Shown piece by piece: positions 1,475 through 18,921 of a DNA stretch of 23,784 bases (within the stretch, counting starts at the first letter, position 1; every line of letters begins with the position of its first letter). The notes below the pieces were generated by a model that was given only the letters and a program-made list of their open reading frames with translations, was not told where the DNA came from and searched no databases. Origin of the DNA: a virus. The stretch spans positions 1 through 23,784 of IMG/VR virus record IMGVR_UViG_3300032093_000839; one strand, 5' to 3'. Both the position numbers and the translations under genes were made by a program.

Positions 1475-3771
1475 TGGCTGCCGACGCTAAATCAAGGCTC
1501 AACGAAATTATTACTGCCTATATCGACAAAGATAGTTCCACTGTCGTCGATACGGGCGTTGTGGCCTCGCATTTGGCGCAGATGAAATTATTCGGCATCC
1601 GCCAGGGTGTTGAGTTCTTCCCCAGCCAGGACAATTTTGGAAATCAACGCAAAGATTTTATCGACCGTGTAATCAAATACAACCAAATTGATGCACGCCT
1701 GGATTCAATCTGGGATTATTTCTTGTGTGATGGAAAAGGTCTGTTCTACATTAGGCCTACAAAAATTAACTATCGCATCTACTACTTCCGCGAGCATGAG
1801 TACCGCACGTTCTACAACGTAGACGGTGACCTGGAAGAGGTGGTGATCATCTACAGCTACAAGGTGCGTCGCCCTGGTGGCTTTGGAGCCGAAATAGCAC
1901 AGACAAATATTACCGGCAAAACGCTTGGTGACGGTCAGGCTTCAAGGCGTTACATCAGGCTTTCGATTAAGCGTGACGAAATCAAAGAAACTCACGCAGA
2001 AGGTGAATTATCTTTTGACATGCCGGACTATGCAGTCTCCGGTAAAACAAAATTGTTAAAAAATACGCTCGGTTTTATTCCTTGCGTTGAGATCTTCAAT
2101 AACCCCAAAGGCTTTGCTAACGACGGTGTTGGCGAGTTTGATGCATTAGCCAATCACATCGTCACGCATGACGAAATGGTTCGCACCATGCGCAAGAACG
2201 TTCAGTTCTTTGGTAACCCCACACTACTGTCATCTCGTCCCAAGACGGACTTGATTGAGGCAGGTGGTGATTCTACGGTACAGCGTCCTTCTATTGCAGC
2301 AAACTCTGGCTTCACCAGCCCTGCATCCTTGAGTGCTTCGATGTTCAAGGCTGATCCCGTCAGTCGTGGCGTTGATGGACAGATTCGAGTGCCAAGGATC
2401 ATTGCAAACCTGGAGCCGAATGACCGTGTTGGTTACATTGTTCCAGATGCAATCACTGGTGACCAAAATCAATTTGCCCGTCAGTATCGCGAAGAAATTC
2501 GCACTGCACTTGGCGGTGTGGATGAACTGTCAATTTCAGCTGGTGTTACCGCAACTGAATACAAGTCACTATTTGGTCGTGTATCAGCAACATCCAAGAA
2601 AAAAGCAAATGCTATTTACACGTATGGCATCTGCCGCTGCCTTGAGTTAATTATTTATCAAGAAGAACAACTCTTCCGTCAATCGTTGGCGGCTGCAGCA
2701 GGTATTGAAAAGCCAGTTGATCTTCCTGTTGATGCACCAGAAGAAGAAATTGCTGCCTACAGGGAAGCAATGAAAATCTTCAATGATCAAGTCAAAGAGA
2801 TTATGATGGCTTGCGTGGAAACAAAAATGATTCCGCCAGGCGTTCTTGGGTTAATCCCCGATGGCGATGTCACGATGCTTTGGCGTTGGACAGGTCCTGT
2901 GTACGAGGAAACCACTCAGGACACACTTAATAATTCTATTGTGGTTCGCAACCTACAAGAATTAGGTGTTGATAGCATTGAAGCACTGAAATACCTCTTT
3001 CCGTCTAAGACGGATGAGGAGCGGGCCGAGATGTTATCTGGGTTCCCGTTCAGGATGGTGAATGAATTGCAGAATGCTTATTCTCAATTCGCCAAATTGG
3101 TGGGGGGGATGATGCAGACTCCTCACCCTCAATCACCAGACTTACCGATGGCTGCTGATCCTCGTCTGGATCTGACACCCTATCTGTATCGAACCTTAGA
3201 AGCTTTACAAAAGGAGATGAGTTATGCAGGACGCTACCGTCCAATCGATCCCACAGACGAGCCAAGCACCAGCAGCAGTAGCCCCAAGCAGCTACGTGAT
3301 GGCGGCACCGGCACCTCAGGCGGCACCGGCCAGCTACCAGGCAGCTCCAGTGGCTTATCAGGTGGGTACCAGCTACCCCCAAGCAGTACCACAGGCGAAC
3401 CCCAGCTACCAATCCGCCCCTACTCAGTACGCCCCCCAATCCCAACCGGCGGAACAGGCGGGGAACCCGTGGGAATCGGCGTTCAACAAGGTGGTGAATC
3501 TTCTGAGCGCACCAGTTCAATCCCCGTTCCAGGGAGCACCCTCGCAGGTGCCGACACAGTATACCCCGGCGAACTACGGACAAGTCAGCAGCCCAGCTAC
3601 GCAACAATCGGCTCCCCAGACTTGGTCGCCCAGCCAGGATTACTCTCCCAATTATTCCCAAACCTCTTCCAGTCCCTCACTGGAGCAGATCGCGGATTAC
3701 CTGGGGATGGGGCAGGAAAGCCGCCAAGTAATCGACGCGTTCGGAATCGAGGCACCCGCCGTACTAAATAA
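1474..3771 (+). CDS. Portal protein
   Basis: 765 residues. Portals form the dodecameric ring at one capsid vertex through which DNA enters and leaves. Support: gene order (terminase, then portal, scaffold, capsid), length, and portal-like sequence. The first 150 residues hold the clip/wing-like start (VASHLAQMKLFGIRQGVEFF), then YFLCDGKGLFYIRPTKINYRIYYF; the middle has a stretch resembling portal core regions, with FARQYREEIRTALGGVDELS at about 330-350. From residue 584 to the end the sequence turns into Gly/Ser/Pro/Thr low complexity with a basic tail (RRVRNRGTRRTK). This part overlaps the scaffold-like gene in another frame for 548 bases. The real portal fold probably ends near residue 590; the rest may be an extension created by loss of a stop. 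Confidence 0.8.
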   Translation: MAADAKSRLNEIITAYIDKDSSTVVDTGVVASHLAQMKLFGIRQGVEFFPSQDNFGNQRKDFIDRVIKYNQIDARLDSIWDYFLCDGKGLFYIRPTKINYRIYYFREHEYRTFYNVDGDLEEVVIIYSYKVRRPGGFGAEIAQTNITGKTLGDGQASRRYIRLSIKRDEIKETHAEGELSFDMPDYAVSGKTKLLKNTLGFIPCVEIFNNPKGFANDGVGEFDALANHIVTHDEMVRTMRKNVQFFGNPTLLSSRPKTDLIEAGGDSTVQRPSIAANSGFTSPASLSASMFKADPVSRGVDGQIRVPRIIANLEPNDRVGYIVPDAITGDQNQFARQYREEIRTALGGVDELSISAGVTATEYKSLFGRVSATSKKKANAIYTYGICRCLELIIYQEEQLFRQSLAAAAGIEKPVDLPVDAPEEEIAAYREAMKIFNDQVKEIMMACVETKMIPPGVLGLIPDGDVTMLWRWTGPVYEETTQDTLNNSIVVRNLQELGVDSIEALKYLFPSKTDEERAEMLSGFPFRMVNELQNAYSQFAKLVGGMMQTPHPQSPDLPMAADPRLDLTPYLYRTLEALQKEMSYAGRYRPIDPTDEPSTSSSSPKQLRDGGTGTSGGTGQLPGSSSGLSGGYQLPPSSTTGEPQLPIRPYSVRPPIPTGGTGGEPVGIGVQQGGESSERTSSIPVPGSTLAGADTVYPGELRTSQQPSYATIGSPDLVAQPGLLSQLFPNLFQSLTGADRGLPGDGAGKPPSNRRVRNRGTRRTK

Positions 3772-6835: not shown

Positions 6836-7246
6836 ATGTTGTATCAGCACAAAAAAACTGGCGCACGTGTCAAGGTTGTAAGCGAATGGGATAACGGTGA
6901 TTGGTTCATGGTCGAAGACCAAGACGGTCGCCTTTATACCGTTTACAAGACAGAGATTGAGCTTGATGAATCTGCTACTAAAAAAGTAAAGACTCTTCAA
7001 GTTAAAGATCGTGCAGCACAAGAAGAGCCACGCACCTTCCCTCCCGATACCCGGCTAAATGTAAATTCAGCCACCGCCCAAATGATCGCTGATCACATTA
7101 AAGGCATTGGTCTGAAGACTGCTCGGGAAATTAAAGATCTTCAGATGTCTTTATCGGGTGAAAGATTTAACAGTCTTGAGCAGTTAAAGCAAATTAAACG
7201 GGTGGATTGGAATGCTGTAATGGCCGCTGATCTGATTAGGGTTTGA
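6836..7246 (+). CDS. Helix-hairpin-helix DNA-binding protein
   Basis: 136 residues in two parts. Residues 1-45 look like a small beta-barrel of SH3/KOW type (TGARVKVVSEWDNGDWFMVE, GRLYTVYKTEIEL). Residues 74-125 match the ComEA-type helix-hairpin-helix repeat: LNVNSATAQMIADHIKGIG, KTAREIKDL, then FNSLEQLKQIKRVDW. HhH pairs bind DNA backbone without sequence specificity. Placed between capsid proteins and the next virion genes, it may contact packaged DNA or the head-tail junction, but that is inference. Translation may depend on the hairpin at 6808-6834. A strong terminator follows 16 bases after the stop. Confidence 0.75.
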   Translation: MLYQHKKTGARVKVVSEWDNGDWFMVEDQDGRLYTVYKTEIELDESATKKVKTLQVKDRAAQEEPRTFPPDTRLNVNSATAQMIADHIKGIGLKTAREIKDLQMSLSGERFNSLEQLKQIKRVDWNAVMAADLIRV

Positions 7247-7262
7247 TTCTCATCTCAAGTAG

Positions 7263-7292
7263 CCCTCGGGAAACCGAGGGTTTTCTTGTCTT
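7263..7292 (+). terminator. Rho-independent terminator closing the capsid operon
   Basis: CCCTCGG (7263-7269), loop GAAA, CCGAGGG (7274-7280), then TTTTCTTGTCTT. A perfect GC-rich seven-base stem with a stable GNRA-type loop and a T-rich tail is a classic intrinsic terminator. Genes beyond it need their own promoter or read-through. Confidence 0.9.
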
Positions 7293-7297
7293 AAAAT
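7286..7297 (+). promoter_or_regulatory. -10-like element placing transcription start at the next ATG
   Basis: TAAAAT at 7292-7297 lies six bases before ATG 7304, so initiation seven bases downstream would give a leaderless message; no Shine-Dalgarno is present. The overlapping TTGTCTTA (7286-7293) is the same octamer found before the capsid gene at 4721-4728. No good -35 is visible because the terminator stem occupies that space. Confidence 0.3.
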
Positions 7298-7303
7298 ACA
7301 AGC

Positions 7304-7996
7304 ATGGCAAAGATTACGCGGATAGGTCAGCTCGGTTCCTCTGGTGTTTCCAGTGGCCCGCATTTACATGCATATGTAAAGAACCTTGTTACTGGCGAGT
7401 ACGAAAACCCTGAGTATCACCGCAGTAAGTTCACAGGCGTACGAGTTGGTGCCAATAGGGTGCCTAAGTACATCACAGATAGCAAAGGTGAGTTGATCTT
7501 AAACCCTGCAGCTGGTTTAACTAAGACTTCCTCCTGGGGGCCACGCAACACAGGCATTCTTAATGCAAGCACGTACCATAGGGGCGTTGATTACGGTGGC
7601 AAGGAAGGCACGGAGATCTACGTCGAAGGTGATGTCAAGTTCACCCCGCGTCCCAATGCAGGAGGCTATGGGAATCTTGCTACCTGGACTACAGGAGACA
7701 ATAAGTACGAGCTTGGTTACGGCCACATGAAAACGCTTGGCGAGGCAACTGATCTCACCAATACAAGCGTGGCGCCAACCCCGCGTGTCTCATACGAAGA
7801 AGCCCAAGGCAAAACAAACGATTTAATCGAAGCGTTCATGCTTGGAACCAACTACCAGCCACGCGAGAAGAAACAAACAAGAGAACCTCAATCATTACTT
7901 GGTGCATTTAAAAGTCAAATATTGGGTGGCATTTTACAGAACGCAATGAATCCACTTGCGGGCATCATAGATCAAGCTGGTGACACTGTCGCTTGA
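7304..7996 (+). CDS. M23/LytM-like peptidase domain with permuted motif order
   Basis: 230 residues. M23 peptidases are zinc enzymes that cut peptidoglycan cross-bridges. All hallmark motifs are present, but in altered order. The usual last motif, G-SSGPHLHAYV (H20 and H22), is at the extreme N-terminus. It is followed by SSWGPR (76-81), the first zinc motif HRGVD (H92, D96), GGYGN (120-124) and the catalytic-type YGHM (H141). The normal order is HxxxD, GYGN, GHM, then HLH. No second HLH follows residue 141. The C-terminal part (from about 170) is a charged linker and a hydrophobic helix (LLGAFKSQILGGILQNAMN). Likely virion-borne wall hydrolase; loss of activity is possible. It follows a terminator and may have a leaderless mRNA. 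Confidence 0.7.
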   Translation: MAKITRIGQLGSSGVSSGPHLHAYVKNLVTGEYENPEYHRSKFTGVRVGANRVPKYITDSKGELILNPAAGLTKTSSWGPRNTGILNASTYHRGVDYGGKEGTEIYVEGDVKFTPRPNAGGYGNLATWTTGDNKYELGYGHMKTLGEATDLTNTSVAPTPRVSYEEAQGKTNDLIEAFMLGTNYQPREKKQTREPQSLLGAFKSQILGGILQNAMNPLAGIIDQAGDTVA

Positions 7997-8014
7997 TTTG
8001 TTGCTTTTATAATA
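7991..8014 (+). promoter_or_regulatory. Recurrent promoter-like motif, copy 1
   Basis: GCTTGATTT (7991-7999), five bases, then TTTTATAATA (8005-8014). The same two blocks with the same spacing recur at 20793-20816. TATAAT here is 8008-8013, so transcription would begin around 8020, 17 bases before the GTG start at 8037. The TTGATT is too close to serve as a normal -35. It overlaps the stop of the preceding gene. Confidence 0.45.
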
Positions 8015-8036
8015 AAAGGTACACTGGAACATAGAA

Positions 8037-8498
8037 GTGCAATTTAGCGACTTCGACAAAAGTAGAATTAGGTATCATCTGGGATACTTCACTGTTTCTG
8101 TGCCAGCGGGTGACTATGCTCGTCTGGAAGAGGCGATGAATACAGTCCCTGATTCCTACTTCTACGATAAAATTGTTATCCAGATTGGGCGTTGCGATAC
8201 GGCCGAAAAGAAGACAGAGGTTGCATCCTCTCCTTCCACTCGGATTGAAAATATTGTTGGCGACGTTGACCGTACCATTCGGTCGAGTAATGCCAAAGAA
8301 GCGCTAAAAGTTTGGGACGAGATTTATCTCTACGAAACAAATCGTCTAGCTGGCATTCTTTACGTTCCTAACTACAAAGATCCGTACCAGGCACGTTACC
8401 GTTACGAACGCTCTGGTGCAGAATTTATCCAGGCATTACCTGGACCTGCCGATGTTTCCGTGGGTACCCGTATATACCTACACGAGCTATGGAGATAG
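8037..8498 (+). CDS. Virion structural protein, possibly head-tail connector; C-terminus recoded
   Basis: 153 residues from a GTG start. Mixed alpha/beta: YFTVSVPAGDYARLEEAMNT, YDKIVIQIGRCDTAEKK, then a helical DVDRTIRSSNAKEALKVWDE and LAGILYVPNYKDPYQARYRY. The position after the head genes suggests a connector or completion protein, but no family is recognised. The last twelve residues, VGTRIYLHELWR, are repeated as VGSRIYLHEVWR in a relic at 9076-9114, beyond the homing endonuclease gene. The two copies agree at the peptide level but differ mostly at synonymous positions. The gene thus appears to have had its 3' end replaced when the endonuclease gene inserted. Confidence 0.65.
   Translation: MQFSDFDKSRIRYHLGYFTVSVPAGDYARLEEAMNTVPDSYFYDKIVIQIGRCDTAEKKTEVASSPSTRIENIVGDVDRTIRSSNAKEALKVWDEIYLYETNRLAGILYVPNYKDPYQARYRYERSGAEFIQALPGPADVSVGTRIYLHELWR
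8460..8498 (+). repeat. Upstream copy of duplicated gene 3' end
   Basis: These 39 bases encode VGTRIYLHELWR plus TAG. The partner at 9076-9114 encodes VGSRIYLHEVWR plus TAA. 29 of 39 bases match; ten of twelve residues match; seven codons (counting the stop) differ only silently. The pair brackets the HNH gene. Confidence 0.85.
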
Positions 8499-8538
8499 CT
8501 TGACCCGTGTATGCTAATATATTGATACACGCATCAAG
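8499..8538 (+). promoter_or_regulatory. Interrupted hairpin between a Shine-Dalgarno and the HNH start
   Basis: CTTGA (8499-8503) pairs with TCAAG (8534-8538), and CGTGTAT (8506-8512) with ATACACG (8525-8531), with a two-by-two internal loop and a 12-base AT-rich apical loop holding TAATAT. GGAG (8491-8494) lies before the stem and ATG 8542 after it; removing the stem leaves seven bases between them. It may deliver the ribosome or restrain the endonuclease. Confidence 0.6.
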
Positions 8539-8541
8539 TCA

Positions 8542-9057
8542 ATGGTGGCCCCTTGCCCCCTGCCTGCTGTTGAAGAGTTAAAAGAATATTACAAATACAT
8601 ACCAGAAACAGGTGAGTTGTTTTTAATAAAGTCGCGTTGCAATGCGGACAGAGAAAAACTTGGCAAGCCAATCGGCTCTCTTGGTGGGCCAGTAAGACGT
8701 AAAACATGGACAGTAAAACATAAAGGAAAAAGCTATTACATTAGCAGGATTGCTTGGCTACTAATGACGGGAGCGGATCCTGGTTCCATGTTGGTTGAGC
8801 ACAAAAATAGAAACGCGCAAGACAATCGCTGGGAAAACTTAAGGTTGGCAAGTGAAGCAGAAAATAACTACAACAAGATTTTTGTAGGTTACAGCAAGAG
8901 AAAAGATAATGGGCTTTATCGTGTTCGCGTCACTTTAGACGGAACGCGCATTACTGTAGGTAACTTTGAGAATGAAGATGACGCCAAAAAAGCTGCCTTA
9001 GATGCACAAAAGCTTTTTTACAAAGAGTTTGCGTGTCTTGATTTAGAATCGAATTAA
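8542..9057 (+). CDS. HNH homing endonuclease with AP2 DNA-binding domain
   Basis: 171 residues. The N-terminal part (11-75) carries the beta-strand and helix lead-in of HNH_3-type enzymes (YYKYIPETGELFLIKSR, YYISRIAWLLMTG). The HNH core is VEHKNRNAQDNRWENLRLAS (85-104), with H87, N95 and N99 at the expected spots; E86 replaces the usual Asp. The AP2-like domain at 115-168 ends in FYKEFACLD. HNH-AP2 proteins nick or cut DNA at a target and spread by repair. The Shine-Dalgarno is absent next to the ATG but present before the hairpin at 8499-8538. The gene sits inside the 3' end of a structural gene, as homing genes do. Confidence 0.88.
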   Translation: MVAPCPLPAVEELKEYYKYIPETGELFLIKSRCNADREKLGKPIGSLGGPVRRKTWTVKHKGKSYYISRIAWLLMTGADPGSMLVEHKNRNAQDNRWENLRLASEAENNYNKIFVGYSKRKDNGLYRVRVTLDGTRITVGNFENEDDAKKAALDAQKLFYKEFACLDLESN

Positions 9058-9063
9058 TAGATA

Positions 9064-9114
9064 GAGCCAACAGCAGTTGGTTCCCGTATTTATTTACATG
9101 AGGTTTGGAGGTAA
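9064..9114 (+). pseudogene. Relic 3' end of the structural gene displaced by the HNH insertion
   Basis: Read in frame, these bases give EPTAVGSRIYLHEVWR and TAA, matching the end of the protein at 8037-8498. A TAG at 9058-9060 precedes it in frame and no start codon serves it, so it is not translated as a gene on its own. Its last codons TGG-AGG-TAA contain GGAGG (9107-9111), the Shine-Dalgarno of the 9117 gene. That explains why the relic was kept. The recoded upstream copy reads TGG-AGA-TAG and has lost this signal. Confidence 0.8.
9076..9114 (+). repeat. Downstream copy of duplicated gene 3' end
   Basis: Partner of 8460-8498; encodes VGSRIYLHEVWR and TAA. It carries the GGAGG used by the next gene. 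Differences from the upstream copy are mostly third-position and silent. Confidence 0.85.
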
Positions 9115-9116
9115 GC

Positions 9117-10175
9117 ATGAATCGTCAACCACAAAAAAGCGCAGCTCAAAAACAACGCGCCAGGGAACAGCAAGCTGTTTTAAATAAGTTGCGTGGAGGC
9201 GGCGTTATTTCTGGTGCGCAACCAGCCAATCCCATCATTGGCGGCATTCAAAGTTTATTTGGTGGTGCGGGTAAAGGTGCTATCCCTGCATTAGGTGCTG
9301 CACGCCTTGGTGGCCAAGAAGTATTAATGAATAGAGGTGGATGGGATACAAGGCGTGCCGGCAGTGGTCCAATTAATGTTGGTGGACAAACTTGGTATCC
9401 TGCTCAAAGCGGCCAAGATCTTGTTTACAAACGTGCACCCGGTTTAGTAGGTGGACAATATGGCAGTCTTTTTTCAGGTGGTGCGGTTCCGCCTTCAGCA
9501 CCGCCCGCAGATAACAGCAATCCCGCTGCTAATCGTGCTTACGAAGCTACAAAGAGCAGTGTTGCACAACAAGCCGCACAGAATCCGGAATTTCAGCGTT
9601 ACGAACAGGCTCGCCAAAAAGCAGTTGCCGCTGGCCCTGGTTCTGAAGCTGAACAATCTGCAGAAGACATCGGGATGCAGATTTGGGCAAAAAAATATGG
9701 CAAGCCAGGAGATCTTGCGTCACGCGTTAAGCCTGGCCAAGCTGGTTACGACGTAATCCAGCGCACCTTGAATGCAGGTCAGATGGGTGCGCCTGCTGAC
9801 TTGGGTGCGTTCACTGGCACTGCTCCTGCAGGATTCCTCGGCAGCTCTGGCGCCCCTGCAACCAGTAGTTACACGGGTGTTACTCCGGTCAACTTAGGCA
9901 TGGGTGCAATTGGTCCTAACGCACTGACCAATGCATATAATATGCAGACCGCAAGCTCTTTCAATAAATTCATGGAAGGGCCCACGTTAAGCAGCCAGCC
10001 CCTTGGCGCACCGACTGCATCTATTGGTGAAGTCCCAACCTACTCTCAGCTAACCCAACCTCAATCCTATGGGTTAGGTGCTATCCCTGGTGAGGAAGAA
10101 ACCTTTGGTAGCGATGCCTCTCAAAAGTTTGCTAATACGTACGCCAAGAAGCTGTTGAACTTCCAACCTATTTGA
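9117..10175 (+). CDS. Gly/Ala/Gln-rich virion protein, unknown function
   Basis: 352 residues. ATG 9117 is chosen over an in-frame TTG at 9105 because GGAGG sits five bases upstream. Basic Gln-rich start (MNRQPQKSAAQKQRAREQQA), then long Gly/Ala/Pro stretches (GGIQSLFGGAGKGAIPALGA) with a helical middle (QNPEFQRYEQARQKAVA; EDIGMQIWAKKYGKPGDLAS) and a Ser/Pro/Gly-rich end. The composition resembles neighbouring virion genes (scaffold-like and 4200 genes). No family is recognised. An internal head protein or tail-associated protein is the best guess from location. Confidence 0.6.
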   Translation: MNRQPQKSAAQKQRAREQQAVLNKLRGGGVISGAQPANPIIGGIQSLFGGAGKGAIPALGAARLGGQEVLMNRGGWDTRRAGSGPINVGGQTWYPAQSGQDLVYKRAPGLVGGQYGSLFSGGAVPPSAPPADNSNPAANRAYEATKSSVAQQAAQNPEFQRYEQARQKAVAAGPGSEAEQSAEDIGMQIWAKKYGKPGDLASRVKPGQAGYDVIQRTLNAGQMGAPADLGAFTGTAPAGFLGSSGAPATSSYTGVTPVNLGMGAIGPNALTNAYNMQTASSFNKFMEGPTLSSQPLGAPTASIGEVPTYSQLTQPQSYGLGAIPGEEETFGSDASQKFANTYAKKLLNFQPI

Positions 10176-10388
10176 TTTATCTGGCATTGCATAGCATGTA
10201 AGCCCAGCCAACTGGACACAGATCTTTGATCTACGGGGGCCAGTGTTGTTGCTTTAAAACCATGATTCTCTGTCCCAAATTTGTTAAACGTACTTTGACC
10301 TATTTAGCTACGACCCTTGCGCTGCAAACCGTATTTATCCCTGGTCTCAAAGCGAGTTCAAATTGGGTAGGAGAATAAGGAGAACAAT
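10176..10388 (+). other. 213-base spacer before the lysozyme-type gene
   Basis: It holds a possible hairpin from ACTGG (10211-10215) and CCAGT (10240-10244) with an inner AGATC/GATCT pairing, a small signal-peptide-like reading frame (10262-10378), and two ribosome-binding sites near the end (AGGAGAATAAGGAGA). No tRNA, convincing promoter or terminator was found. Confidence 0.4.
10262..10378 (+). CDS. Possible 38-aa membrane or signal-peptide-like protein
   Basis: ATG 10262 opens a frame encoding a positively charged start (MILCPKFVKRTL), a hydrophobic core (TYLATTLALQTVFIPGL) and KASSNWVGE. This resembles a signal peptide with a possible cleavage after LKA, or a single-pass membrane peptide. 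No Shine-Dalgarno is visible. It ends ten bases before the lysozyme-type gene. It could be a small lysis-related peptide, a decayed leader once fused to the next gene, or chance. Confidence 0.35.
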   Translation: MILCPKFVKRTLTYLATTLALQTVFIPGLKASSNWVGE

Positions 10389-11060
10389 ATGTCATTAAGT
10401 CCCGCCGCCGCTATTGTTGCTCGTAAGTTAAAACAACAAGGCTATAGCAACGCACAAATTGCAGGCGTCCTTGGCAACATCTCCCAAGAGTCTGGCTTTA
10501 ATCCTCGCGTAAACGAGGGTGGTGCAGTTGGTGGCCCCATGGGGCGTGGCGGGTATGGCTTGGCACAGTGGACGGGTGGCCGTCAAACAAACTTAGTTAA
10601 TTTTGCAAAAACAAAAAAGCTTGACCCAGGCGATGCTGGTCTTCAAGCTGATTTCTTATTGCATGAATTACAAGGACCCGAAAGCCGTGCTGCCGAATCT
10701 CTGCGCAAGGCACAGTCACCTGAGCAAGCAGCGTTAGTTTTTCGTCGTGACTTTGAACGCGCCGGCATCCCCAAGGATGAGAACCGGATGCGTGCAGCAC
10801 GCGACTTAATGCCTAAACTGCAATCACTAGAAGGTGGTATTGATTTTGCACCACCTGCCCTCCCTGGAGAGCAACAAAGTGTTGCTTACCGTTTAGCAGA
10901 AGCAGGCATTGATCTTACTGGTGATCAAGAAGACAAAAAAACAACGGCCAATACATTACTGGAAGCATTCAAACAACAGGTTCTTCCTGCAATGCTTCCA
11001 CAAGGTATTATGAACATTAACGCCGTTAATCCGTTCCAAAATCCGTTCCAGGTGCTTTGA
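10389..11060 (+). CDS. Phage tail-lysozyme-type muramidase domain protein
   Basis: 223 residues. Residues 5-145 match the phage tail lysozyme family (Phage_lysozyme2): an N-terminal helix (AAAIVARKLKQQGYSNAQIA), GVLGNISQESGFNP with E34 as the probable catalytic glutamate, GGYGLAQWTGGRQTNLVNFA, then DAGLQADFLLHELQG and FRRDFERAG. Such domains cut the glycan strand and are usually carried on the particle to open the wall at entry. The C-terminal 70 residues are a linker ending in a hydrophobic stretch like the end of the M23-like protein at 7304 (LLEAFKQQVLPAMLPQGIMN versus LLGAFKSQILGGILQNAMN), which suggests a shared docking segment. Strong Shine-Dalgarno AAGGAGA at 10377-10383. Confidence 0.78.
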   Translation: MSLSPAAAIVARKLKQQGYSNAQIAGVLGNISQESGFNPRVNEGGAVGGPMGRGGYGLAQWTGGRQTNLVNFAKTKKLDPGDAGLQADFLLHELQGPESRAAESLRKAQSPEQAALVFRRDFERAGIPKDENRMRAARDLMPKLQSLEGGIDFAPPALPGEQQSVAYRLAEAGIDLTGDQEDKKTTANTLLEAFKQQVLPAMLPQGIMNINAVNPFQNPFQVL

Positions 11061-11353
11061 TGGACCGTCGAGATTACGTTGGTAGCGATGATGCTTTACC
11101 AGGAGATTACAACCGTTATCTCTCTGGTAAAGACTCAACCAAGCCTAACCCCAGCAAGGATATTCAATACAGACTTGCCAAGCTGTACAAGGTAGATGAT
11201 TTCAATCGTCTAGCCTCTTCCGTTGCTGGAGCACCAAGGTCTGAATCGTTCCAACGTTTTCTTGCTCTTCAGCAAGATCCTGATCTTCTTGCAAGGGCAT
11301 CTATGAAGATGCCCAATACACCCTTCGGATCGCTGGGTAGTTTTACTGAATAA
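11060..11353 (+). CDS. Small protein of unknown function in virion operon
   Basis: 97 residues. ATG 11060 overlaps the preceding stop (TGATG), so it is preferred over the TTG at 11057. The sequence is hydrophilic and helical: MDRRDYVGSDDALPGDYNRY, then DIQYRLAKLYKVDDFNRLAS, and FQRFLALQQDPDLLARASMK. No family is recognised. Coupling to the lysozyme-type gene suggests a shared role or a partner in the particle. Confidence 0.55.
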   Translation: MDRRDYVGSDDALPGDYNRYLSGKDSTKPNPSKDIQYRLAKLYKVDDFNRLASSVAGAPRSESFQRFLALQQDPDLLARASMKMPNTPFGSLGSFTE

Positions 11354-11367
11354 CAACAAAACATTAT

Positions 11368-11396
11368 TTGCATTAGAATATTTTCAACGAGATAAT
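11368..11396 (+). promoter_or_regulatory. Sigma-70-type promoter ahead of the 11420 gene
   Basis: TTGCAT (11368-11373), a 17-base spacer and GATAAT (11391-11396) make a good -35/-10 pair in an AT-rich spacer. Transcription would begin near 11403, upstream of the AGGAGA ribosome-binding site (11408-11413). Confidence 0.5.
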
Positions 11397-11419
11397 TTAC
11401 TTTATATAGGAGAACGGCA

Positions 11420-14404: not shown

Positions 14405-14767
14405 ATGTTCAATTGCGAACAGGAACCCCTTGCCCTGCTCATTGAATTAACTCCAAAGCTAGCTAAGAAACGTTACCGTCAATCTATATACGATGCCTGG
14501 GACTGCAAATGTGCTTATTGTGAGGCGGATGCCACATCATTGGATCATGTGATTCCCAGGTTTAAATCAGGTTCAAGCAATAGAACAAACCTTGTTCCAG
14601 CCTGTCGCAGGTGCAATACATCCAAGGCAAGTGCCAAGATGAATGAATGGTTTGAAAGACAAGAGTTCTTTACTCAAGCTAGGATGGATAGAATTAATGC
14701 CTGGATTAAACAAGAACCTTTTGACGTTTTTGTTTGCGATTTAACCGTGTTTAGGGAAGCTGTTTAA
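14405..14767 (+). CDS. HNH endonuclease with zinc-binding cysteines (McrA-type)
   Basis: 120 residues. C36-x2-C39 (CAYC), then LDHVIPRFKSG (D47, H48), N62, and the second pair C67-x2-C70 followed by N71 (ACRRCNTSK). This is the standard zinc-finger HNH nuclease core, in which H48 is the general base. The N-terminal 30 residues are a basic helix (LTPKLAKKRYRQSIYDAW). It may be a homing enzyme or a nuclease aiding packaging. The AT-rich stretch before it has a TAAAAT at 14378-14383, which may drive it. It diverges from the antisense regulator and ends one base before the next ATG. Confidence 0.82.
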   Translation: MFNCEQEPLALLIELTPKLAKKRYRQSIYDAWDCKCAYCEADATSLDHVIPRFKSGSSNRTNLVPACRRCNTSKASAKMNEWFERQEFFTQARMDRINAWIKQEPFDVFVCDLTVFREAV

Positions 14768-18477: not shown

Positions 18478-18921
18478 ATGGCTAAAAATAAATATATTGT
18501 GGCTTTGTGCAAGGACTGCTTTAAACCTTGTAACAAAAGAAAAGATTCTTTGAAAACATGGCAAGGCCGTTGCCGTTCTTGCGCCAGGAAACATGTACAC
18601 GCGTGTACTGATTTCACTATTAACGCAACAAAAAAAGCAAATACAATACATGGAGATGCCAAAAACAAGTACAGTAAAGGCCATTGGTTATATGGACGAT
18701 GGTTAAAAATGCGTCGTCGTTGCAAAGAGTATCCTACGTACATTGCCAAAGGCATTCAAGTATGTGATGAGTGGCTTTTAAGTTACCCAGCGTTTAAAAA
18801 GTGGGCGGAAGAAAACGGAGCAGAACAAGACCTGGAGCTGGACCGCACCGATAATTATGGCGATTATTGCCCAAGCAATTGCCGTTGGGTCACGCATCAG
18901 GTAAACTGCCAGAACAAGTGA
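18478..18921 (+). CDS. Homing-type HNH-like endonuclease with N-terminal zinc ribbon
   Basis: 147 residues. C11-x2-C14 and C32-x2-C35 form a zinc ribbon. The C-terminal two-thirds matches a widespread phage homing-type family: LYGRWLKMRRRCKEYPTY, KGIQVCDEWL, then LELDRTDNYGDYCPSNCRWV with R123, D125 and N126, and a terminal T..Q..NK. The strong C-terminal consensus gives confidence in the family; cutting activity is inferred. No Shine-Dalgarno is seen at the ATG. It sits between two small conserved genes, and AACTGGT occurs both before it (18458-18464) and after it (18942-18948), possibly marking the insertion site. Confidence 0.75.
   Translation: MAKNKYIVALCKDCFKPCNKRKDSLKTWQGRCRSCARKHVHACTDFTINATKKANTIHGDAKNKYSKGHWLYGRWLKMRRRCKEYPTYIAKGIQVCDEWLLSYPAFKKWAEENGAEQDLELDRTDNYGDYCPSNCRWVTHQVNCQNK

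Follow-up and report, generated by a model that had tools for sequence, protein, structure and literature searches.

A recoded gene end that probably moves with an HNH homing endonuclease gene in S-EIV1-like cyanophages

We analyzed a 23,784-base virus record (IMGVR_UViG_3300032093_000839, hereafter the window), a fragment of an S-EIV1-like freshwater cyanophage, in which an HNH endonuclease gene splits the last codons of another gene, gene A, instead of lying between intact genes. Comparison with relatives makes it highly probable that this HNH gene and a recoded gene A end together form a mobile unit of ~620 base pairs (bp) that homes at the gene A 3' end. Gene A is full length with its new end, and a remnant of the native end lies downstream of the HNH gene. 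The features of the region, all on the + strand, are as follows.

8037-8498, +: gene A, a complete protein of 153 amino acids (PHROG_29158), made with the replaced end
8454-8498, +: recoded 3' end of gene A (the replaced end), covering codons 140-153 and the stop, element-borne
8500-8537, +: possible hairpin in the gap from the gene A stop to the HNH start, with arms at 8500-8512 and 8525-8537
8542-9057, +: HNH homing endonuclease gene, 171 amino acids, with an HNH_3 domain and a C-terminal unit that is possibly AP2-like
9073-9114, +: remnant of the native gene A 3' end (AVGSRIYLHEVWR-stop), 42 nucleotides (nt), not translated with gene A
9107-9111, +: GGAGG in the remnant, the likely Shine-Dalgarno sequence of the next gene
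9117-10175, +: downstream gene, whose start varies among relatives

The two gene A ends in the window are similar in protein and different in spelling. The upstream copy (8460-8498) reads VGTRIYLHELWR-stop and the downstream copy (9076-9114) reads VGSRIYLHEVWR-stop; they agree in 10 of 12 residues and differ in 10 of 39 bases, with seven of the differing bases in silently changed codons (stop counted). These counts, given in an original prediction made from the letters of the window, are exact. The recoded stretch begins at codon 140 (8454), and gene A ends with the residues SVGTRIYLHELWR. The remnant begins at 9073 (9070 with one mismatch allowed) and reads on into GGAGGTAAGCATG, the start of the 9117 gene; its last bases, TGGAGGTAA (9106-9114), stop 2 nt short of the ATG at 9117, and the upstream copy reads TGGAGATAG. 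A scan of the ends of open reading frames (ORFs) of at least 80 amino acids on both strands of 270 loci plus the window, at a threshold that overlooked true cases here (e.g., L096 and L113; related loci carry L numbers), returned 12 distinct duplicated C-termini, every one at the gene A site, and none in reversed sequences. The duplicated end is therefore not due to chance.

Relatives with empty sites bear out the claim that the HNH gene entered a coding 3' end. In L008 and L009, which lack the element, gene A ends with the window's remnant (42/42 nt; 41/42 in L012), and uninterrupted genes ending VGSRIYLHEVWR directly before the next gene exist, as the original prediction had anticipated. The gene bodies of L008 and L009 are 96-97% identical to that of the window, and the window's own end matches theirs at 30/42 positions. 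Comparing the window with L008, we found 398/414 identical bases in the gene body vs 33/48 in the last 48 nt (Fisher p 1.8e-8; the loci are related, so this value and the distance and recoding p-values below are indicative only). The occupied locus L005 and the empty locus L012 are collinear, with 93.0% identity over 3462 nt upstream and 93.1% over 2305 nt downstream, and 43 nt of L012 (3420-3462) are covered by both alignments, that is, by both L005 ends.

The same arrangement recurs wherever it can be assessed. Among the best 80 of at least 594 gene A relatives in viral contigs, 15 have the HNH gene and the rest have one end; 14 of these 15 have both ends, and one contig is cut inside the HNH gene. 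Scans with HNH queries yielded 28 contigs, 26 of them (at least 47% identity) at the gene A site and two (38%; L115 and L116) elsewhere. Gene A lies upstream in 25 of the 26, L098 starts inside the HNH gene and shows the remnant alone, and both ends are visible in 22, with L095, L098, L099, and L100 cut by a contig end. With 74 pattern loci added to the gene A searches, we compared 128 distinct gene A loci, some of which entered via HNH queries, a sample that gives no estimate of the element's frequency in nature. Nineteen carry HNH sequence, two of which are cut by a contig end, and all 17 assessable loci have the replacement C-terminus upstream and the native C-terminus downstream of the HNH gene. 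Among the 109 HNH-free loci, 107 have a full-length gene A and two (L140 and L181) have a broken or partial one; a second gene A end was found in 0 of the 97 that are full length with at least 620 nt downstream. The original prediction had named relatives with both copies and no HNH gene as evidence that would speak against it, and none was seen. The sole locus with both ends but without an intact HNH gene, L179, is a decayed element, in which a deletion has left ~30 C-terminal HNH codons between the replaced end and the native remnant.

The distribution has the form expected of a homing gene, with patchy presence at one exact site and empty alleles in close relatives. On a tree of the gene A body (codons 1-136, 124 loci), HNH presence requires 15 changes, and at least 10 of them are imposed by branches with good support. 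A single clade (support 96) contains a type I element in L087, two elements of the other HNH subfamily in L131 and L165, and four chimeric ends without an element. In all 11 diverse copies aligned, the HNH frame is open.

We found that the replaced end travels with the enzyme gene. The best match of the replaced ends to any native end is 0.67-0.78 (19/19), and remnants match native ends at 0.81-1.00, with 9/17 at 1.00; the replacement end thus appears foreign to the recipient, and the native end clusters with the recipient's relatives. Across 17 loci, distances between replaced ends correlate with HNH distances at r 0.82 and with gene A body distances at 0.54, and the HNH and gene A body distances correlate at r 0.27. 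Remnant distances, on the other hand, follow the gene A body (r 0.45, p 0.008) and not the HNH gene (0.09, p 0.23; 16 loci). L149, L189 (155 amino acids), L140, and L181 were left out of end matching, tree, and distance analyses, and L238, which fitted no class, was omitted from end matching and counted as native in the distance and recoding analyses.

Two HNH subfamilies carry different ends. In L107 and L112-L114 the replaced ends read VSVGTRLYLN[LTI][HN]WR, and the remnant, with PADTAVGSR, starts ~9-12 nt earlier; the other elements, including the intermediate group L024 and L044, have VSVGTR[IL][YF]LH-type ends and a remnant from codon 141. The original prediction left open whether the replacement end was brought in or evolved in place. 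The second subfamily brings a different C-terminus and the replaced ends track the HNH gene, so that "brought" fits better than evolution in place.

Replaced ends also carry an excess of recoding. Where gene bodies have a synonymous difference below 10%, 75% of comparable end codons differ in replaced-native pairs (17 pairs) vs 24% in native-native pairs (58 pairs). At body differences of 0.3-0.7, the per-locus codon difference is 0.74 for replaced (n=19) vs 0.51 for native ends (n=83), with p 5e-11 for loci that are not independent. Beside the junction, codons 140, 141, and 144 hold the fixed or nearly fixed differences from the native class ending LHEVWR. The excess could reflect selection for a respelled site, or the ends could come from a source that the sampled diversity does not include; the comparison does not separate the two explanations.

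Several observations weigh against this interpretation. The replaced end of the window differs from L008 by T140V, A141S, S144T, and V151L, four amino acid differences in all (codons 140, 141, 144, and 151), and the second HNH subfamily swaps LHEVWR for LN[LTI][HN]WR. The replacement is hence not perfectly protein-preserving, and the claim that it "keeps the protein" holds for the full length of gene A but not for these four residues. Replaced-end distances follow the gene body as well, at the r of 0.54 given above, and weakly the remnants (r 0.28, p 0.035, 16 loci), and shuffled labels gave as few changes in HNH presence in 9/500 trials, which makes the element somewhat clustered; inheritance is thus partly vertical, or the element moves mostly among close relatives. 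Furthermore, a duplicated C-terminus is absent from eight phage records with PHROG_99 relatives at 33-36% identity (L271-L278: four Demerecviridae, one Certevirus, two Schitoviridae, and one unclassified), which are eight of 1365 matching phage records, so that further cases may exist, and from the 38% viral-contig relatives L115 and L116. Because these distant relatives lack it, the duplicated end is not general to the HNH family. In L277 (ON922919.1, a Schitoviridae phage), the related HNH gene is flanked by two stretches that are both annotated as RNA polymerase and seems to split that gene.

Twenty-two HNH-free loci have gene A ends with VSVGT, and in 19 of them (the exceptions being L030, L047, and L152) the closest sequences are replaced ends for the 5' part and native ends for the 3' part, a pattern expected from recombination between one element's two ends; the 5' half of this comparison is biased, because VSVGT was the criterion by which the loci were selected. 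L061, L163, L186, and L188 share one identical end, which tracks the L087 replaced end (one base off) to a CCCG common to the L087 replaced end and the L087 remnant, and then the L087 remnant. The ends of the 22 loci may be excision scars. It is also possible that the direction was the opposite and the chimeras are older than the element. L030 is element-free and has a replaced-type end over its whole length (3424-3462), overlapped by the next gene, and may descend from the donor lineage or have arisen by a one-sided deletion.

Three other explanations could account for parts of this arrangement. The HNH gene may once have been a free-standing neighbor of gene A in a diverged lineage, whose gene A end and HNH gene a recombination event then joined to a resident genome, with the unit later spreading mainly by ordinary homologous recombination in gene A and not by endonuclease-driven homing. 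The foreign look of the replaced ends (0.67-0.78 at best to native ends), the whole-length replaced-type end of the element-free L030, and the different genes that follow gene A in close relatives all agree with such a history. However, the element is patchy at one exact site across gene A clades, two HNH subfamilies share that site, the HNH frame stays open in the 11 aligned copies, and the replaced end has excess synonymous change, all of which fit active homing better. We regard spread by ordinary recombination as unlikely, and it differs from homing mainly in what drives the spread, not in architecture.

A free-standing HNH gene in an intergenic gap, with ends that are alike by chance or through an old tandem duplication of the gene A 3' end and with no homing, is far less probable still. 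Free-standing homing genes outnumber intron-encoded ones in T4-like phages, according to the available part of PMC2988022, and no intron was found at the site, but a duplication independent of the HNH gene does not predict a second copy in every assessable HNH locus vs none of the 97 HNH-free loci, nor its presence with two HNH subfamilies that have different replaced ends and junctions, and the remnant resembles the empty alleles of the recipient's relatives and not the upstream end. Least probable of all is a self-splicing intron or intein, in which the stretch between the ends would be removed from RNA or protein and the native end used. Homing endonucleases often reside in introns, and the remnant does keep a readable C-terminus, yet the upstream reading frame, which runs to full length and closes with a stop, requires no splicing; the HNH gene carries start and stop codons of its own, no splicing domain was found in Pfam or PHROGs, and the L097 remnant lacks the Trp codon. 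An Rfam scan of 8000-9400 gave no intron match at E up to 5, only a chance match at E 1.4, and so lends nothing to the excision of 8460-9075 as an intron, the other contrary outcome that the original prediction had considered.

We propose that the HNH element spreads when an empty phage co-infects the same cell. The HNH enzyme would nick or cut the native gene A 3' end at about codons 140-150, and repair would copy the unit from the occupied genome into the empty one, with the gene A body serving as left homology arm and the native remnant, together with the gene after it, as right arm. The product would be a whole gene A, its old body continuing in frame into the new end, together with the endonuclease and with the old end as untranslated DNA that would still provide the next gene's ribosome-binding site. 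We infer from the respelling that replacement abolishes cleavage: the replaced end would escape cutting as its sequence differs, and the remnant as its left half is gone. Elements would later decay in place or disappear when their two ends recombine, so that gene A would again be whole but with a chimeric end. Judged from these comparisons, the HNH element with its spare gene end is real, recurrent within the S-EIV1-like group, and well explained apart from the predicted cutting step.

The original prediction had held that the old end was kept for the next gene's ribosome-binding site. GGAGG occurs in 13/17 remnants vs 1/19 replaced ends, but in only 31/83 native ends. Where GGAGG exists, the remnant likely supplies the ribosome-binding site, and the L097 remnant, which has lost the Trp codon and kept GAGG, is as expected if that site alone matters. 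As a general reason for retention, however, this is only partly supported, and the remnant may equally serve as the right-hand homology arm, as follows from the repair model. The overall interpretation stands for the insertion into a coding 3' end and for the end that travels with the endonuclease, and in part for the ribosome-binding site.

Between the gene A stop and the HNH start, the possible hairpin at 8500-8537 has a 12-pair consensus stem in 10 chosen type I elements; one pair is changed on both sides (three sequences), four pairs are broken in one or two sequences, and the covariation term is near zero. Its loop holds an extended -10-like TGCTA..AT just 5' of the HNH start codon, and the hairpin is perhaps a promoter and a translation block in one.

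The HNH gene product has the HNH motif and matches Pfam HNH_3 (E 4.2e-13) and PHROG_99 "HNH endonuclease" (E 1.1e-45), along with a sub-threshold SPOR match in Pfam. The naming of an "HNH/AP2 gene" thus holds for HNH, and AP2 is not established, there being no Pfam AP2 match. The AlphaFold model has three strands plus a helix at the C-terminus, and a structure search of the model against PDB gave no match that reached E 0.001; the AP2 domain 7et5 appears at rank 13 (E 0.53, probability 0.99, 37 columns), behind mostly double-stranded RNA-binding domains. An AP2-like C-terminal unit is plausible on this model. No relatives of the HNH protein were confirmed in bacterial and archaeal genomes (0 of 175 pattern matches). 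Two records labeled Listeria phage, OR849099 and OR846838, have HNH identity and coverage equal to those of Salmonella and Escherichia phage records and are possibly mixed samples or mislabeled fragments.

The layout has a published counterpart in fungal mitochondria, and the description of an "unusual homing strategy" therefore needs qualifying. In the available part of PMC3630166, elements termed mORFs replace C-termini in Allomyces macrogynus atp6 (the first case) and in Glomus sp. atp6, atp9, cox2, and nad3, with Rhizopus oryzae atp9 and Mortierella verticillata cox2 also named. As in the phage element, an endonuclease gene lies in a coding 3' end, a foreign C-terminus is in frame, and the native C-terminus is left downstream; the two ends of the fungal atp6 are 63.5% identical in DNA and 91% in protein. 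On the other hand, the enzymes in that source are mitochondrial and of the LAGLIDADG or GIY-YIG families, the replaced ends range from 51 nt (atp9) to 238 nt (atp6) vs ~45 nt in the phage element, and in atp6 and nad3 the ORF is fused in phase, vs a separate HNH ORF in the phage. The many occupied and empty alleles, the decayed copy, and the candidate scars are a further difference from the fungal cases as described there. The phage element resembles the fungal mORFs in how it works, but its HNH enzyme and phage host set it apart from them by descent.

Free-standing enzymes of T4-like phages (SegF, SegG, MobE, and others), as covered in the available part of PMC2988022, are likewise HNH or GIY-YIG genes outside introns, and some have regulatory RNA hairpins near their start codons, comparable to the position of 8500-8537. 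A further shared feature is that recipients are presumed to gain resistance from the donor sequence (PMC12724721). The T4-type genes differ in being located between genes and in cutting at distances of hundreds to thousands of bp. In phage Aeh1, MobE leaves nrdA as two separate coding regions, whereas our element restores the gene end; the main text of PMC2988022 nowhere contains the word "duplicat". T4 mobA, in gene 60, is likewise a homing gene inside a coding gene (PMC2988022), with a solution that keeps the protein. The T4 solution is a 50-nt translational bypass plus a split gene, in contrast to a recoded end. The gene 60 bypass protects against MobA. The engineered home-and-rescue drive HomeR, in the available text of PMC7968924, joins a nuclease-guided cassette to a recoded target 3' end (22 or 27 amino acids) that restores the protein; it is synthetic, Cas9-based, and made for Drosophila, whereas the phage element is natural and its native remnant is seemingly still used as a ribosome-binding site. 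No phage case of a duplicated gene end appears in the available parts of PMC10448857, PMC12724721, PMC13096335, and PMC3943268, nor was a phage precedent present among the literature matches listed, in which subscription journals are thinly covered, so that a published case could exist.

The element shows a way for a phage homing gene without an intron or intein to live inside coding sequence, a solution for which the only descriptions we found concern fungal mitochondria and, as a deliberate design, engineered gene drives. We give about even chances to the broader hypothesis that it is a natural "home-and-rescue" drive, selected for a cleavage-proof respelling of its target C-terminus, with the remnant as ribosome-binding site and homology arm, and that cycles of invasion, decay, and loss through recombination of the two ends would leave resistant chimeric alleles and contribute to the variability of the last 14 residues, which is on average far higher than in the remainder of this otherwise conserved protein. 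Since occupied, empty, decayed, and chimeric alleles occur in one phage group, a cycle of invasion, decay, loss, and reinvasion is directly testable in a small system, as is the rise of resistance to a self-rescuing drive.

Synechococcus phage S-EIV1 was the sole match in the phage collection both for the stretch 7200-11400 and for the gene A protein. The gene A family, PHROG_29158, has no assigned function and lies between head and tail genes, so that gene A, called structural in the original prediction, is putatively so by its neighborhood alone; the predicted structure (predicted local distance difference test score, pLDDT, 39.5) is of too low confidence for use. Mean column identity is 94% among 33 chosen relatives. 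Codons 140-153 (8454-8495) have a mean entropy of 0.80 vs 0.19 bits elsewhere (124 loci), and the last 14 residues in the 83 native loci alone have 0.73 vs 0.18 bits; the most variable single column, 47, lies outside these residues, and C-termini as dissimilar as LHEVWR, LNLNWR, and LAENYR occur. Two more HNH genes of other families lie in the window (14405-14767 and 18478-18921), with no duplicated gene end beside them by eye, and the scan of the window gave the 8498 case alone. The gene after gene A (9117-10175 in the window) opens with different sequences at the same place in near relatives, and the end of gene A looks like a recombination border even without the HNH gene. In a rough listing in which two rows are HNH starts or false starts, we found no link between the type of gene A C-terminus and the start of the next gene, some starts following two to four C-terminus types. 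Later parts of the downstream gene can align, as between the window and L012 from 9559 on.

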